Below are positions 4,981-58,381 of a DNA stretch of 64,000 nt, in pieces. The notes beneath the pieces were generated by a model. The model was not told where the DNA came from, made no database searches, and saw nothing but the letters and a program-made list of their open reading frames with translations. Position 1 is the first letter of the stretch, and each line of letters begins with the position of its first letter. This DNA comes from Giesbergeria sp. (GTDB lineage: Bacteria > Pseudomonadota > Gammaproteobacteria > Burkholderiales > Burkholderiaceae_C): the NCBI GenBank assembly GCA_023150295.1, contig JAKLLE010000011.1, positions 1-64,000 of the forward strand, in the 5' to 3' direction. Both the position numbers and the translations under genes were made by a program.

Positions 4981-6348
<1,368 letters not shown>

Positions 6349-6380
6349 AAATCCTGCTACAATCTAAAGCTTGCCCGCCA

Positions 6381-6468
6381 GGAGAGGTGGCAGAGTGGTC
6401 GAATGTACCTGACTCGAAATCAGGCGTAGTGGTAACACTACCGAGGGTTCGAATCCCTCCCTCCACTG
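6381..6468 (+). tRNA. tRNA-Ser (anticodon CGA) with an altered acceptor 3' strand
   Basis: GGAGAGG..., anticodon arm CCTGA-CTCGAAA-TCAGG, long variable arm, T-arm GAGGGTTCGAATCCCTC. The 3' strand CCTCCAC does not fully pair with GGAGAGG. Confidence 0.85.
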
Positions 6469-6484
6469 CAAGTATTCATATCAG

Positions 6485-6506
6485 ACGGGCCCGAGTGGCC
6501 CGTTTT
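6485..6506 (+). terminator. Terminator-like hairpin just inside the island, downstream of tRNA-Ser
   Basis: ACGGGCC-CGAGT-GGCCCGTTTT. Confidence 0.65.
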
Positions 6507-6704
6507 GCGTTTTTACCCTCTAGCGTACCCGCGATAGTGCGCGGCACATGGCGCTTGCTGGGGACATGACGTGCCATTCGCCATCCATATACCTAGATGC
6601 TGGCCGTATTCCGGCAGGTATCGAGCCTCAGCTATCTACGGATAGAGTTCACTTTGGATATTCATCAGGTGAGCGCTACCCGTGACATAGTGAGATTGTC
6701 GTGA

Positions 6705-7414: not shown

Positions 7415-8335
7415 TCATTCGCAGATGCTGTGGAACATGGCCTGCTCCTCGCCAGCGGTACATATGGTCAGTTGCTTTCCATCTCGCTGCCAGCGGAATC
7501 TACACATGGCCAGCCCTGACCCGCTGCAGGTCTGCATTTCCGGACGGCCCTCACATCGGGTGTCACCTTCCATGCATTGATCTGCCTCTTTAGAGATCAC
7601 AGGCTGCCAGCCATCGCGCATGAGAACCACCCGCACCTGTGCATAGGATTCGTTGCGAGCGAATGATGGGACAGGACGCCGTTTGATGCTAGTCTGGGCC
7701 TGGGTTTCGTCCACCACTGGCGGCGGCGAGCGATCATTCCCGTCTGGTGCCTTGCGAGAGACCATGATTGGCGCGCGATTCTCTGCCGCCACGGTTTTGC
7801 CGGTGAGCTTCTGCCATTGCCCAGCATATGTCCAGTATGTCTGTCCTTGGTAGGTGACCTGCATGCGCTTGGGTTTGAGGGGATCGGCATCCTTCGATGA
7901 TTGCCATTCCATCCAGTCCGCCCTCACTGGATCACCATGCGTCACCTCACGGCATTGCCCGCGTGCGATCTTGCGCATGGCCTCCGATCTCCATGCCGCT
8001 GCATCTCGCTGCATGTAGGTGTCGCTGGTGATGATGCGTCTCTGCATATCCGGTTGGTGGCGGAATTTCTCCAGCAGGGCTTGGTTCGTCACATCTTTGG
8101 CACCGATGATTTCATCGAATGATTGCTGCTGGCTGCACAGCAGGGCAGGCTCGGTCATGGCAGGGCGCAGTTCCAGTTCTACGTCCGGCATGAGCAGTGC
8201 GACCGGGACCATGACTGCGACAGCCAGCCCGTACCACGCCAGGATCACCTTCGCTTTGCCTATGCGGCCCTGTCCCCATGTGACTGATGACCACGCCCGG
8301 AGAGACTTCCACTTGGTGGCGAGATAGTTCTTCAT
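7415..8335 (-). CDS. Membrane-anchored protein of unknown function with a Cys-rich C-terminus
   Basis: Single N-terminal TM segment (VILAWYGLAVAVMVPVALLM); overlaps the integrase stop by 4 bp. Confidence 0.65.
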   Translation of the reverse strand: MKNYLATKWKSLRAWSSVTWGQGRIGKAKVILAWYGLAVAVMVPVALLMPDVELELRPAMTEPALLCSQQQSFDEIIGAKDVTNQALLEKFRHQPDMQRRIITSDTYMQRDAAAWRSEAMRKIARGQCREVTHGDPVRADWMEWQSSKDADPLKPKRMQVTYQGQTYWTYAGQWQKLTGKTVAAENRAPIMVSRKAPDGNDRSPPPVVDETQAQTSIKRRPVPSFARNESYAQVRVVLMRDGWQPVISKEADQCMEGDTRCEGRPEMQTCSGSGLAMCRFRWQRDGKQLTICTAGEEQAMFHSICE

Positions 8336-9669
8336 TGCATTGCTCCCTCTGTGTTGTTGTGCTGATTTGGTGTGTCGTCCCGTGTTGATGCGAGTGGGTC
8401 AGAGCTATGACCGTCGGTCATATTTCCTGCGCGGCGACCGATGGCGTAGTCCGCCCAGTCCTGCATGAGCTGCTGCCGTTTAGCGAGGAGGTCACCACGC
8501 CGATACGCTGCCTCCACCTTGTTGCCCACCGTATGAGCCAGTGCCATTTCTGCGACCTCGTTCGGGTAGTCGGTTTGCTCTGCGCACCAGTCGCGGAACG
8601 TAGAGCGGAACCCATGGGGCACCGCCTCCAGCTTCAGGCGACGGAGTACCGCCGTGAGCGTCATATCCGAGAGCGCACTACCCAGTTCAGGATCACGGCT
8701 GTTGGGGCTCGGGAATACATACGCCTTGCCCGTGGTGCGTCCCGCTGCGAGAGCGAGCGCTTTCATTTCTTGCAGGAGTGCGATAGCTGCATCCGACAGC
8801 GGCACCCGATGGGCCTTGCTGGCCTTCATGCGTTCAGCAGGGATGGTCCACACCCGCGCAGCCAGATCGATTTCTTCCCAGGTGGCACCGCGAACTTCTC
8901 CGGAGCGGGCTGCCGTCAGGATCAGGAATAGCAGGGCCTTGGCACCCATCCCCTCCTGACCCACCAGTTGCTCCATGAATACCGGCAACTGCGCATAGGG
9001 CAGCGCCTGAAAATGCGTCGTCTTGGTCACCTTGCCCGGAGCAGGCAACAGCTTGTCCAGCAGCCCCTTCCAGCGTGCAGGATTGGAGTCCGTGCGGTAG
9101 CCCCGTGCAATAGCCCAGTCGATGATGGATTCGATTCGACCGCGCAGACGGGTGGCCGTCTCTGTCTTGCTGGACCAGATTGGCTCCAGCACCTTGAGCA
9201 CCATCGCCAGCGATATGTCCCGCACAGGCATCTTGCCCAGCACGGGCGTGGCATACATGTCCAGCGACCGTTGCCACTGCTGCGCATGCTTGGCGTTCTT
9301 CCAGCCCTTCTCATGCGAGGCGATGTAGCGTTTGGCCGCTTCACCGAACGTCATGCTGGTGTGGATTTCCGCGACCAGACGGGCCCGCGCTCTGCGTGCG
9401 TCCTCGATAGGGTCGATGCCCTGCGCCAATTTGGCACGGGCAGCCCGAGCCGCCTCCCGTGCATCCGCCAGCGTCACGGACGGATAGGAGCCCAGGCCCA
9501 GGTCTCGTCGCTTGCCTGCCACCTGATAGCGCAGCACCCAACTGCGCGAGCCGTACATCGTGACGTTGAGGATCAGGCCACGCACGCCGCCGACATGGTT
9601 GGTGCCACGGCGCCAGAGAGCTGCCACCTGGGCCGCACCCAGTTCCTTGCGCGGTTCGCGGGGCATCAT
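8332..9669 (-). CDS. int: P4-type tyrosine-recombinase integrase (DUF4102 N-terminus)
   Basis: LGSYPSVTLADAREAARAARAKLAQGIDP and R..H-x-x-R...Y motifs (TAARSGEVRGATWEEID, PHGFRSTFRDW, ALAHTVGNKVEAAYRRGD). Confidence 0.95.
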   Translation of the reverse strand: MMPREPRKELGAAQVAALWRRGTNHVGGVRGLILNVTMYGSRSWVLRYQVAGKRRDLGLGSYPSVTLADAREAARAARAKLAQGIDPIEDARRARARLVAEIHTSMTFGEAAKRYIASHEKGWKNAKHAQQWQRSLDMYATPVLGKMPVRDISLAMVLKVLEPIWSSKTETATRLRGRIESIIDWAIARGYRTDSNPARWKGLLDKLLPAPGKVTKTTHFQALPYAQLPVFMEQLVGQEGMGAKALLFLILTAARSGEVRGATWEEIDLAARVWTIPAERMKASKAHRVPLSDAAIALLQEMKALALAAGRTTGKAYVFPSPNSRDPELGSALSDMTLTAVLRRLKLEAVPHGFRSTFRDWCAEQTDYPNEVAEMALAHTVGNKVEAAYRRGDLLAKRQQLMQDWADYAIGRRAGNMTDGHSSDPLASTRDDTPNQHNNTEGAMQ

Positions 9670-11103: not shown

Positions 11104-11329
11104 TGGCGTGCTTCCGCCCAGGTGTGACCTGCCTGCTGGTTGATGCCAGCTACAGAGTGGAGAGAGCCGCATACGCCATCTCCGAGGTCGATCGAGTCTG
11201 TTCCCCTTACTGCCTTACCCGGCGCCCCGCCCGGCAGCCCCGAGTTTCGGGTGGGAGCGTTTCATGATCTGCCCTGCGTGATTTGAGGCCGTTGGTCACT
11301 GTTTCGCGAGCTTGTTCTCCCTATGCCCC

Positions 11330-11381
11330 AGCCCCCGCCCGCCCCGCCGTCCCCGTAGGGGACGGGCGGGCGGGGGCGGGT
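11330..11381. repeat. GC-rich inverted repeat 1 (CCCC-GTA-GGGG apex)
   Basis: GCCCCCGCCCGCCCCGCCGTCCCC GTA GGGGACGGGCGGGCGGGGGCGGGT. Confidence 0.7.
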
Positions 11382-11689
11382 ATGTGGTGGCGGGACATGG
11401 TTTCCGAGGGGGCGCGGCACGAGCCGTCACGCTGGTCTGATGCCACTGGATTCATTGAGGTCAGAGTGGTACTTACGCGCGTTTCGTGGGGGCTGTGACT
11501 ATGGGGGTAGCGGGCAGGTTCTTCGTGCAGCTCTTTGGTACCACTCTGTACGACTTCGGTGCCATCATGCGCTGGTGGCTCGCCGTTTGCTCAGGCTCCA
11601 GTTCTGCGTTTGGGTATCTGCTGCCGTCACTCGCCCGGGGATTCCTGTCCCGGGTTTATCCGTTTGCGCGTTACCCAGTAGCTTCCACC

Positions 11690-11750
11690 CCAGCCCGACT
11701 CCCCCCCGCCCCCCCTTTCAGGGGGGAGCGGGCGGGGGGGAGTTGGGGCG
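11690..11750. repeat. GC-rich inverted repeat 2
   Basis: CCCCAGCCCGACTCCCCCCCGCCCCCCCTTTCAGGGGGGAGCGGGCGGGGGGGAGTTGGGG. Confidence 0.65.
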
Positions 11751-11862
11751 GTGGAGATTTGGATGTGCCCTGATGCCCGTTCCGAGATTCGGCTAGAGGT
11801 AGTCGATGATGTTTGATGGCTGCAGTTTGGGTTAGCGACTTCCCCGGGATGTAATTGGATTT

Positions 11863-11915
11863 CGACTGCCCACCCCGCCCGGCCCCGTAGGGGCATGGGG
11901 GCGGGTGGGCAGTCG
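11863..11915. repeat. GC-rich inverted repeat 3 (CCCC-GTA-GGGG apex)
   Basis: CGACTGCCCACCCCGCCCGGCCCCGTAGGGGCATGGGGGCGGGTGGGCAGTCG. Confidence 0.7.
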
Positions 11916-11964: not shown

Positions 11965-13104
11965 TCAGCGCAGAAAGCCCAGTTGGAACACCATGGGTCT
12001 CAGTTTGTCTGTCAGCGCCTGGTAGGCCTGCTCAAAGGGAGCGAAGTTCACCGGGGCAGTGTCGCCGCCTTCGCTGCGAGCCTTGAGCGCGTTGCGGATC
12101 TGGTACCAGCCCACGTCAGGGCGGTTGAGTTTGTATTCGTCGCGCACGGTGCGCACGTCGGTGTGGGCAAAGTATGCCTGCCATAGCGTCCGCCCGGCAT
12201 CGAGCACAGCCTGGGCTTCGGACGTCAGGGTTTTATCGGCCAGGTACTGCACCATGAAGTCGGACTCGAAGCGGTCGGGAGCGCCCACCTCGGTTTCGGT
12301 GAAGGGGATGAAGTGGTTGACCAGTGACCACTGCTTGCCGTTCCACTCGAGGCCATTGGCGCCTGCTGTGAGGTTGCTGCCGTTGAACAGCATCCACATT
12401 AGGCAGTCCGTCCGGAATTCAGCCGTCAGGTCGCCGATCGGTTGGAGAAATTGGTCACGGTCGTTTATCCAGGTGGGTTTGACGACGCGCCGCATCGTGA
12501 AAATTACTGCCGCCTGCCACAAGTTTTCCGCCGTGATGTAAGCGCCACCGCCGTTGCCACCTGTGTAAATGGAGGATGTGATGAGAGTTTCTTGTCCTGC
12601 ATGCTGGAGGTCGTTGTTGCTCGCGTACAGGTAGCCCACCATTGCGTCGCACGATCGCTTTAGTCGCGGGTTGCCAGATACTTTGACAGCGTTCGCAAGT
12701 GGCAAAGCGAGCTCCATATTTGGTTCTGGTTTTTCCATCCACACATTAAGGTATGTGCTGGTGGGCAAGTTGTAGAACCTCTTCGCACCGATCTGCTGTG
12801 CCTTCTTATCCAGCACCTCGACGGCAATTTCTGTGATCGGTATTTTTCTTTCTGAACCTTGGTTGGTTTTCCATATCAGAAAGCCAATCGGGAAGTCGCC
12901 TTTGAGCCCGTCAAATGCCTTGCTATGAACGATGAAGCCACCCAGGTAGGCCGCATGCCAGTCTGTGCGAAACTTTGCAAAATTGGGGGCATTCACGTAC
13001 TTAAGCTTGCTGAACATCGCTAACGTTGCTGTGGGCAACTCCGTGGAAATGCGCGCTAAAAACTGGACGAACAGCTCTTTGCTGGCATAGCCCATGTTGG
13101 CCAT
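11965..13104 (-). pseudogene. Probable C-terminal part of an N6-adenine DNA methyltransferase-like protein
   Basis: GYASKELFVQFLARISTELPTATLAMFSKLKYVNAPNFAKF...FPIGFLIWKT resembles the post-motif-IV half of such proteins. No NPPY motif upstream in frame. Confidence 0.5.
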
Positions 13105-13111
13105 GCACGTG

Positions 13112-13726
13112 TTAACACGGGTCTGCTCTACGCTTTTTTTGTTCTGATTGCCTTTGCCATACCTCAGCGCCTACGCGGTGCAGTCCCGTGATGATGATGT
13201 CGGTCGACGCCACCCATACCGGCGCGTCACTGCTGCGTTCGCACAGATAGGTACTCCATCCAGACTCATTGCCCACTAGGTCGGGCCTGCCAATTCGGTA
13301 GTCGTCGCAAACCCAGCGGATAACGCTTGTCCAGTACTCATACGCCTTCGCTGCCATTGCTCGGTGGCGAACGGCCACAGCCTCAAGTTGATCCTGTTGG
13401 GCTTGCGGGATCAAGTCGCAGGCGTTGGGATTGCGAGTTAACAATTCGGGGGGGAGTTGTACGTGCTCGTCAACAAACACTCGCACATCAACCTGGTAGA
13501 TGTTGTACTCCAGCGGGTTGCCACCAACCTGCCATGAGGATAGGCGTCCAACGGGGTCGTCGACAGTGCGGTCTCTCTCGATCTTCTCTGCACTGGGCAA
13601 CCGTAGTTCGATTGCTGCACCGTCCATTTGCCATGTGTGCGTAGCACCGAGTAAGGAGGGCGCAACGGCGAAAGCCCGCAAAACAAAGCGGTTCCATGAT
13701 TGCAAATGCATTGGCTGAGTGCTCAT
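13112..13726 (-). CDS. Hypothetical protein upstream of and nearly fused to the methyltransferase fragment
   Basis: 204-aa ORF with plausible composition; ends 8 bp upstream of the next ORF's first ATG, within a poly-A region. Confidence 0.5.
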   Translation of the reverse strand: MSTQPMHLQSWNRFVLRAFAVAPSLLGATHTWQMDGAAIELRLPSAEKIERDRTVDDPVGRLSSWQVGGNPLEYNIYQVDVRVFVDEHVQLPPELLTRNPNACDLIPQAQQDQLEAVAVRHRAMAAKAYEYWTSVIRWVCDDYRIGRPDLVGNESGWSTYLCERSSDAPVWVASTDIIITGLHRVGAEVWQRQSEQKKRRADPC

Positions 13727-13740
13727 GTCGAGAATTGTGA

Positions 13741-13943
<203 letters not shown>

Positions 13944-13999
13944 TCCGCCAGCACAGATTTGCAGAAACTCTGAAAATTCGTGCTAGAATGCGAGGCTTA

Positions 14000-14076
14000 G
14001 CGGCTGTAGCTCAGCTGGATAGAGTACTTGGCTACGAACCAAGGGGTCGTGGGTTCGATTCCTGCCAGCCGCACCA
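14000..14076 (+). tRNA. tRNA-Arg (ACG)
   Basis: GCGGCTG...CAGCCGC acceptor, anticodon arm CTTGG-CTACGAA-CCAAG, encoded CCA. Confidence 0.97.
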
Positions 14077-14111: not shown

Positions 14112-14731
14112 ACCTTTTCCACCAGTGGAATGCCTGGGTAGATTTTGGGTAGGTCAGCTCCTGACTCTCCCCGTACTTCCTTCTCAAGACCCTTGAGGAA
14201 GATCGCTTTCCCGATTCGCGCAATCACCGCCTCACCCCATTCGCGCATGGCCAAGTTGACGGCCAGCGCTACCACACGGCAGTTTGCCGCGTCGTAGCCC
14301 TTGCTGGAATCGATCCGGTCTATGCTTGGCTGAAATGGCGCGGCTCGCTTGCTTGGGTCTGGGCGGTCAAAGCTCAGGGCTATTCCCGTAACTTCGCAGT
14401 AGCCGTTGCAGCGCAGCAGAATTTCTGCAACTTGCGAAGGCGTCATGCTTGCGCCACGTCCAGTTCGGCGCCCGCGATAGGCCATGCCCTGCGCGGTGCG
14501 ATGAAGCCACGACTTTCGGTCGCGCAGCATTCCTTCTACCGTGGTTTCCCAGGCGGTTTGCAGATGACGGCGTGAATACCCTCTGACATAGCGCCCGAGT
14601 ATTTCCTTGGCTTCGGCGAGGTTGCTGGTTTGCGTGCAAAGCCGGATGCGCTCCCCGCGTATCACTTTGTCGATCTTCCAGAACCCATGAGGTTCCAGAT
14701 AGAGCCCAAGAGGTTTCTTCATGTCATCCAT
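14093..14731 (-). CDS. HNH-like protein with an integrase-like N-terminal DNA-binding segment
   Basis: CNGYCEVTGIAL...PSIDRIDSSKGYDAANCRVVALAVNLAMREWG (HNH-like); N-terminus LYLEPHGFWKIDKVIRGERIRLCTQTSNLAEAKE. Confidence 0.65.
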   Translation of the reverse strand: MDDMKKPLGLYLEPHGFWKIDKVIRGERIRLCTQTSNLAEAKEILGRYVRGYSRRHLQTAWETTVEGMLRDRKSWLHRTAQGMAYRGRRTGRGASMTPSQVAEILLRCNGYCEVTGIALSFDRPDPSKRAAPFQPSIDRIDSSKGYDAANCRVVALAVNLAMREWGEAVIARIGKAIFLKGLEKEVRGESGADLPKIYPGIPLVEKVNPVTR

Positions 14732-15881
14732 TCACCACCTCCAATAAGCGGCGCTCTTCTTGCTCCTGGCGCAGTGTGGCCAGCGTCTTGTTCCACTTGC
14801 CCGAGTCGGCTTTGATCTTCTCCAGCGCTGCGTGCAGTTCCACGATTTGGGCCATGCTGTAGTGCTGGGTCATGGTCTTGGTGCTGTGCCACAGCACTTC
14901 GGCCACGGTGCTTTCGGCCACCCCGGCTTCGCGCAGGCGCATGCCTACGGTGTGCCGCAGGTCATGCACATGCAGATCGCCCAAGCCCGCTGCCTTGCGC
15001 GCGTTCTGCCAGGCCGTGTTGTTCATGGTCTGGATTCGGCGGTAGGGCATGGCCGGGGCCTGGTCGGTGTGCTTGACGCGCTCGCGCCGGTACACGAACA
15101 CCCACTCGGGGTGCTGGCCGCGCACCGTCTCGATGATCGACTGCGCCACGCTGTTGCACACGATGATGCGCGAGCGGCGCCCGCCCTTCACATGCTGGCG
15201 GGGCACGTCGAACACTGAGCAGCCCAGCTCGGGCACCCTGATTTCCCATTCCCAGCGCAGGCTGCACACCACGTCGTCACGCACGCCGGTATTGAGCGTG
15301 AACAGCGACATGCGCGCCAGGTGGTCTGGCAGCAGGGGCATCAGCGTGCGCTGTTGGCCCCAACTGATGGGGCGCGGCTCGCGCTGGTGGCCCACCAGGG
15401 GCAGCATGGTGATCTTGGGCGCCTGCTCCAGCCATGTCTTGCCGTCTTCGTCGCGCCAGCTCGTGGCGGCCAGATTGATGATCCGGCGCACCACGCCCAG
15501 GGCGAGGTTGATGGTCTTGTTCTTGCGGCCCTCTGCCTTGCGCGCAGCAACGTAGGGCGCCAGGGCGCCATCGTGGACTTGCGGTAGGGTGAGCTGGCCG
15601 ATGAAGGGCATGATGCTGTCGAGCAGGATGATCTCGGTAGGGAGGCTTTTCTTGTCCTGGTGCGTCGTCACGTAGTGCGCGGCGGCTTGGTCGAAGGTGC
15701 GCTCGGGGCGCATGCCGTGCAGGTGCACGGCGCGCAGCTCGCCCAGGCGCGCTATCAGCCAGCTTTCTGCCTCGCCCGCAGTTGGGAAACCGCGTTGGCG
15801 AAGGCGGGTGCCGAGATACCACTTGTCAACTTGCCAGGTTCCGTCTTTTTCGGGGTAGATGCCCCGGATTTTTTGGCCCAT
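14724..15881 (-). CDS. int: Phage tyrosine-recombinase integrase
   Basis: TLNTGVRDDVVCSLRWEWEI, HVHDLRHTVGMRLREAGV, LWHSTKTMTQHYS. Confidence 0.93.
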   Translation of the reverse strand: MGQKIRGIYPEKDGTWQVDKWYLGTRLRQRGFPTAGEAESWLIARLGELRAVHLHGMRPERTFDQAAAHYVTTHQDKKSLPTEIILLDSIMPFIGQLTLPQVHDGALAPYVAARKAEGRKNKTINLALGVVRRIINLAATSWRDEDGKTWLEQAPKITMLPLVGHQREPRPISWGQQRTLMPLLPDHLARMSLFTLNTGVRDDVVCSLRWEWEIRVPELGCSVFDVPRQHVKGGRRSRIIVCNSVAQSIIETVRGQHPEWVFVYRRERVKHTDQAPAMPYRRIQTMNNTAWQNARKAAGLGDLHVHDLRHTVGMRLREAGVAESTVAEVLWHSTKTMTQHYSMAQIVELHAALEKIKADSGKWNKTLATLRQEQEERRLLEVVNG

Positions 15882-16144
15882 GCGTTCCTTCCTTTCTCTG
15901 TGGGCCATCCGTTCCTGGCCGCATTCTGCGCCTGCCCGTGCTCGCTGTCATTGGCTGCGCTTTGCGGCAGCCCCCCGGCATCGCGTTTGAAGTCGTCGAA
16001 AACCCGGTCGAGGTCGTTCTTGTCGAAGATGAGGCACACGCCCTGCTGGATACCCACCAGGCGGGGGAGCCACAGGGCCTCCCAGGTGCGGCGCTTGACG
16101 CCGACGTAGGCCATGGCTTCTTGTTGCGTGAGGCCGCGTTTCAT
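15755..16144 (-). CDS. Excisionase/AlpA-like DNA-binding protein
   Basis: MKRGLTQQEAMAYVGVKRRTWEALWLPRLVGIQQGVCLIFDKNDLDRVFDDFK; positioned immediately upstream of int. Confidence 0.65.
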   Translation of the reverse strand: MKRGLTQQEAMAYVGVKRRTWEALWLPRLVGIQQGVCLIFDKNDLDRVFDDFKRDAGGLPQSAANDSEHGQAQNAARNGWPTEKGRNAWAKKSGASTPKKTEPGKLTSGISAPAFANAVSQLRARQKAG

Positions 16145-58254: not shown

Positions 58255-58381
58255 GCATTACAGTGCAGTATGTGTCGGAACGGACGGCATCCAGTCAATT
58301 AAAATCAATCACTTACCAGCGGCTGCAAAACTACGAACCAAGGGGTCGTGGGTTCGATTCCTGCCAGCCGCACCAACAGGT

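Follow-up and report, generated by a model that had tools for sequence, protein, structure and literature searches.

The locus analyzed here raises the question of whether an island that entered the gene for tRNA-Ser(CGA) has left its host without that tRNA. The initial annotation of this 64,000-nucleotide stretch (the window) proposed that integration damages the gene instead of restoring it and that the host may have lost tRNA-Ser(CGA). The serS-adjacent side of the locus carries the following features.

4990-6348, + strand: serS, the chromosomal host gene 5′ of the target tRNA (Pfam tRNA-synt_2b and Seryl_tRNA_N)
6358-6363, + strand: −10-like box TACAAT of the tRNA gene, within the duplicated segment (read in the sequence)
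6381-6463, + strand: chromosomal tRNA-Ser(CGA) body, with the same sequence as in empty-site relatives
6443-6463, + strand: left copy of the att repeat, GAGGGTTCGAATCCCTCCCTC (exact repeat and motif search)
6464-6470, + strand: left end of the element, CACTGCA in place of TCCGCCA, a presumably dead acceptor 3′ strand without CCA
6483-6505, + strand: left-end terminator hairpin of the element, GACGGGCCC...GGCCCGTTT, conserved in related elements
6511-6534, + strand: putative degenerate left arm-type repeat, the TTTTACCCTCTAGCGTACCCGCG region, from by-eye alignment with CTACCCATC..TACCTATCGCC of the relatives

The left tRNA-Ser(CGA) copy was placed at 6380-6469 by ARAGORN and at 6381-6465 by Rfam. 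Its 3′ strand reads CCTCCAC-T-GCA, as the initial annotation had it, and gives G-A at 2-71 and A-C at 3-70 against 5′ GGAGAGG; the changed discriminator and the unencoded CCA were likewise found as described. When the Rfam/Infernal check suggested for this copy was run, it scored 46.6 bits, well under the 60.4 bits of the intact gene in the empty-site sister genomes L012 and L013, and the cloverleaf was gone from its predicted fold. Empty sites were found in G024 and G003. These data support the view that the serS-adjacent copy has been damaged by the island's own end sequence. At the place equivalent to the −10-like box, TAGAAT or TACAAT precedes most serS-linked intact copies of the relatives; a strict sigma-70 scan found no promoter.

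The island is a 7.5-kb element inserted in the T-stem/acceptor part of tRNA-Ser(CGA), and it bears an integrase gene.

8332-9669, − strand: tyrosine integrase with Arm-DNA-bind_3, Phage_int_M, and Phage_integrase domains (Pfam and PHROG)

The island has the makeup of an integrative element: the tyrosine integrase lies inside it, direct repeats flank it, and the site is empty in relatives. Relatives of the integrase are 95 to 98% identical, and most of them lie at the same site. The island open reading frames in 11965-13726 (379 and 204 amino acids) and in 7415-8335 (306 amino acids) gave no Pfam, PHROG, or PADLOC family match, and PADLOC returned no defense match in the island. Three strong GC-rich hairpins with 17- to 18-bp arms are spread across 600 bp (11326-11915) in a gene-poor part of the island and are possibly regulatory or replication sites.

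At the other end of the island, the tRNA sequence is preceded by a copy of host DNA.

13743-13765, + strand: right-end arm-type repeat TTACCCATCAGGCTACCCATCC, adjoining the captured host module
13777-13922, + strand: right-end module, a copy of the serS 3′ end, the stop codon, and the tRNA promoter region (98.6% identical to 6220-6365)
13922/13923, + strand: deletion junction, at which 77 nt equivalent to 6366-6442 (the spacer end and most of the tRNA body) are absent; the module is complete in relatives
13923-13943, + strand: right copy of the att repeat, an exact 21-bp match to 6443-6463
13944-13950, + strand: chromosomal tRNA-Ser 3′ end TCCGCCA, completing CCTCTCC-G-CCA and running on into the flank that borders the empty sites of L012 and L013

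The 3′ strand CCTCTCC-G-CCA previously read at this junction was recovered in GAGGGTTCGAATCCCTCCCTCTCCGCCA at 13923-13950. For the 17-bp T-arm part of the att repeat, with at most 3 mismatches, 0.15 matches are expected by chance in the window. What the initial annotation had missed is the 146-bp module, joined directly to the tRNA 3′ end. Since a serS-tail copy precedes the right junction, the right end amounts to the whole upstream module minus the tRNA body. Neither the deletion junction nor the left end of the element had a match in the viral contigs searched.

Related elements were located by DNA and integrase searches of other genomes, including G036 (L041), G004 (L042), Vandammella (L081), Acidovorax defluvii (L082), Paracidovorax valerianellae (L084), Ramlibacter (L078), G343 (L103), and G262 (L105). 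In L041, L042, L081, L082, L084, and L103, the last bases of the left copy are CACTGCA or a variant of it, and a complete tRNA-Ser(CGA) ending with CTCTCC-G-CCA is present at the right end. The right copies scored 60.4 to 60.8 bits with Rfam and the left copies 46.6 to 47 bits, but 34.7 bits in G036, where a 3-nt D-arm deletion and an altered −10 box were observed. The left copy of G262 is heavily decayed; there, the right copy alone scored and no left copy was above threshold. In Ramlibacter, the right copy is intact and just the last part of the left copy was recognizable, and L091 is organized in the same way at tRNA-Ser(GGA), where the contig end truncates the left copy. Thus, a complete downstream tRNA formed from element-borne 5′ sequence was found in L041, L042, L078, L081, L082, L084, and L103, and the window has the right-end module with its tRNA body deleted. 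Wherever both ends were visible, the dead left end accompanied the right-end module. The proposal of damage was therefore supported for the serS-adjacent copy, but the view that this element damages the gene rather than restoring it was not, since relatives with the same kind of left end have a complete tRNA at the right end. For the tRNA to be lost in the window genome, a further event is required, namely, the 77-bp deletion in the spare copy.

We consider it likely that the element has a dead left end, that restoration proceeds from the 5′ side through the right-end module, and that the spare copy in this host has lost 77 bp, leaving no normal tRNA-Ser(CGA). In the proposed mechanism, site-specific recombination would place the element in the T-stem/acceptor part of the gene, where its left end would bring the decayed 3′ strand CACTGCA and turn the chromosomal tRNA body into a dead gene, which presumably yields no usable tRNA. 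The right end would bring the serS 3′ tail, the tRNA promoter, and the tRNA body and fuse them to chromosomal CTCC-G-CCA, a fusion that would normally give a working tRNA on the far side, and it is this spare that the relatives probably express. In the window genome, the spare copy would later have lost the 77 bp covering the tRNA body.

To follow the origin of the captured module, we compared it with the serS regions of its hosts. The duplicated host piece measures 245 to 1273 bp in relatives with one continuous measurable repeat. In most relatives it adjoins the repeated right-end motif CTACCCATC..CTACCCATCG, which we read as integrase arm sites; the two lie ~100 bp apart in Vandammella. Five hosts (the window genome, G036, G004, L082, and L103) share the same module start point in serS, and the modules of Vandammella and P. 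valerianellae derive from a different upstream region. The serS part of the G004 module shares 96% identity with the native serS of a different genus, G036, versus 79% with the serS of G004 itself. The G004 module is foreign, and thus, in that case, it arrived with the element. The right module of G036 is 92% identical to its own serS region and equally close (92%) to the G004 module. The two copies in the window genome are nearly identical, which calls for an origin within the species or for gene conversion; as the window module is so close to the local serS, carriage of the module by the element is shown in a relative only. G004 also has a third, partial serS 3′ tail directly after serS (L042 10189-10269), which suggests that an earlier insertion left a scar there.

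Both designs of left end occur within one integrase clade. Integrases ~95% identical to that of the window were found in G029 and in L104/L090, where the left end is normal (TCCGCCAGTAAGCAAGC...), and the left end is likewise functional in L087 and L088, which are more distant. In G029 and L088, whose right ends are visible, this end holds a short 3′ fragment and nothing more of the tRNA. The terminator and arm motif that follow the left end can be aligned between the dead and live designs. In L104 (3187-3504) and L090 (6722-7039), a right-end module leads into a tRNA that carries the live left end of another element. These loci are apparent tandem elements, in which the module seems to belong to the neighboring element and the tRNA seems to be completed by the live left end of the next one. 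The integrase tree placed the ten closest rows, dead and live, in an unresolved group, and the number of left-end deaths is not resolved by this tree. Since very similar integrases carry either design, the switch between them is directly comparable. We lean toward the view that, in Comamonadaceae and relatives, one clade of integrative elements captured a host promoter and tRNA body and in this way exchanged 3′ restoration of tRNA-Ser for 5′ restoration, and that the 3′-restoring end then decayed. The captured piece would move between genera and be replaceable, and the window genome would represent a host left without the tRNA until excision.

Other explanations have to be weighed against this reading, and two of them concern the window itself. 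The true right junction might be a complete module with an intact tRNA-Ser(CGA), with the gap arising from mis-joined near-identical repeats. The assembly is a draft, and the module is complete in those relatives in which the left end is dead and the right end can be seen. Identity between the two serS-tail copies extends over 140 bp, so that local misassembly could remove the right tRNA body. However, the repeat formed by a full module, ~244 bp, more often breaks a short-read contig than gives a clean internal deletion, and no stray contig with an intact copy was found, so we regard an assembly artifact as unlikely. Alternatively, charging and CCA addition could tolerate the two mismatches of the left copy, in which case tRNA-Ser(CGA) would be altered and not lost. 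SerRS is generally held to recognize mainly the long variable arm, and the score of 46.6 bits still exceeds the Rfam gathering cutoff of 29. The left tRNA body is also unchanged from that of the sister species at 83 of 83 positions, a point that counts against our main reading and that either selection or recency may explain. A working left copy is nevertheless very unlikely in view of the two mismatches, the changed discriminator, the unencoded CCA, and a predicted fold that is not a cloverleaf, and the corresponding left copies of G036 and G262 show decay.

The remaining two concern the element. That the serS-tail copy is a local chromosomal duplication in each host, and no part of the element, would fit the 98 to 99% identity between the two copies in G000, L082, and L103 and the differing module boundaries in Vandammella and P. 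valerianellae. It is at odds with the foreign module of G004 and with a common serS start in five hosts beside the arm motif of the element, and we judge it quite unlikely. The island could also be an ordinary 3′-restoring one, whose altered 3′ end is a normal restoration with recent point mutations; normal left ends do exist in the same clade (G029 and L104/L090). Yet ends of the CACTGCA type recur across many host lineages, paired with a complete right-end tRNA, and as this comparative pattern already contradicts such a history, we hold it to be extremely improbable.

The consequence for the host was examined at the genome level. A search for an intact second tRNA-Ser(CGA), which the initial annotation had suggested, was run across the 3.69-Mb assembly (a 142-contig draft), and no other tRNA-Ser(CGA), intact or otherwise, was found; the remaining serine tRNAs are Ser-UGA, Ser-GCU, and Ser-GGA. 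With the lone copy damaged, the suspected loss of tRNA-Ser(CGA) appears to be real. Sixteen genomes of the genus pass cutoffs of ≥90% completeness and ≤5% contamination; the window genome alone lacks an intact tRNA-Ser(CGA), which the other 15 retain. The family-wide count of intact genes (171/301) reflects a strict sequence pattern, and therefore the genus count alone was used. UCG accounts for 38 of the 129 serine codons in five host open reading frames of the window. Because the codon is common, some tRNA must read it, and tRNA-Ser(UGA) is a plausible candidate. No cmoA was found in the genome and its sole cmoB match is far below the family cutoff, so that such reading would probably not rest on cmo5U34. 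We predict that excision would give this genome back an intact tRNA-Ser(CGA), which would place the integrity of the gene under the control of the element. The locus also carries a warning: a tRNA called next to an island can be a dead copy although it is nearly complete, and the working copy may lie several kilobases off.

Classical tRNA islands bring the 3′ part of the tRNA gene with them on attP. The present element resembles these 3′-end islands in its tyrosine integrase, tRNA 3′ target, direct repeat, and displaced 3′ end at attR, and differs from them in that the promoter-side left junction is not restored (CACTGCA, not TCCGCCA). Islands with a 5′ tDNA fragment account for 159 of 3919 in Islander (PMC4383910) and for 9 of 88 tRNA-integrated regions in S. 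meliloti (PMC11476347). As in those islands, a gene fragment lies upstream and, in the relatives, an intact tRNA downstream is formed from element-borne 5′ sequence; unlike in them, the supplied part comprises 83 of the 90 nt of the tRNA, together with the promoter and the tail of a neighboring protein gene, and the integrase clade also has 3′-restoring members. In tRNA-dependent lysogeny, phages carry a whole replacement tRNA (Guerrero-Bustamante and Hatfull 2024, PMC10865867). There, too, the host tRNA copy is nonfunctional after integration and the element carries the means of replacement, but the phage tRNA gene is separate and complete and neither att junction is functional, whereas here the replacement would be built at attR by fusion to the chromosomal 3′ end. 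The two tRNA genes in the window both lie outside the island, and no separate element-encoded tRNA gene was found. Elements of this kind are candidate intermediates between rebuilding a target tRNA and supplying one's own, a question left open in PMC10865867. Pyrococcus yayanosii island PYG1 has partial tRNA copies listed as genes (PMC9897764), and the present locus is similar in having a low-scoring, presumably nonworking tRNA copy beside an island that software calls a gene; here, however, the false copy is upstream and promoter proximal, and all but its last 7 nt match the intact gene. Tycheposons were considered and rejected, having just a tRNA and a tyrosine recombinase in common with the element. 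The literature searched gave no account of such use of a protein-gene tail captured together with promoter and tRNA body, and its incomplete coverage makes this weak evidence of novelty.

A prophage of ~44 kb occupies the next gene, tRNA-Arg(ACG), with its junction regions at 14000-14076 and 58331-58375 and a 45-bp att repeat at 14032-14076 and 58331-58375. Its genes include an integrase (14724-15908), a ParB-like protein, terminase gpA, a lambda-type portal, and a tape measure protein. The tRNA-Arg(ACG) is normally restored, and the prophage looks like a classical tRNA 3′-end island.
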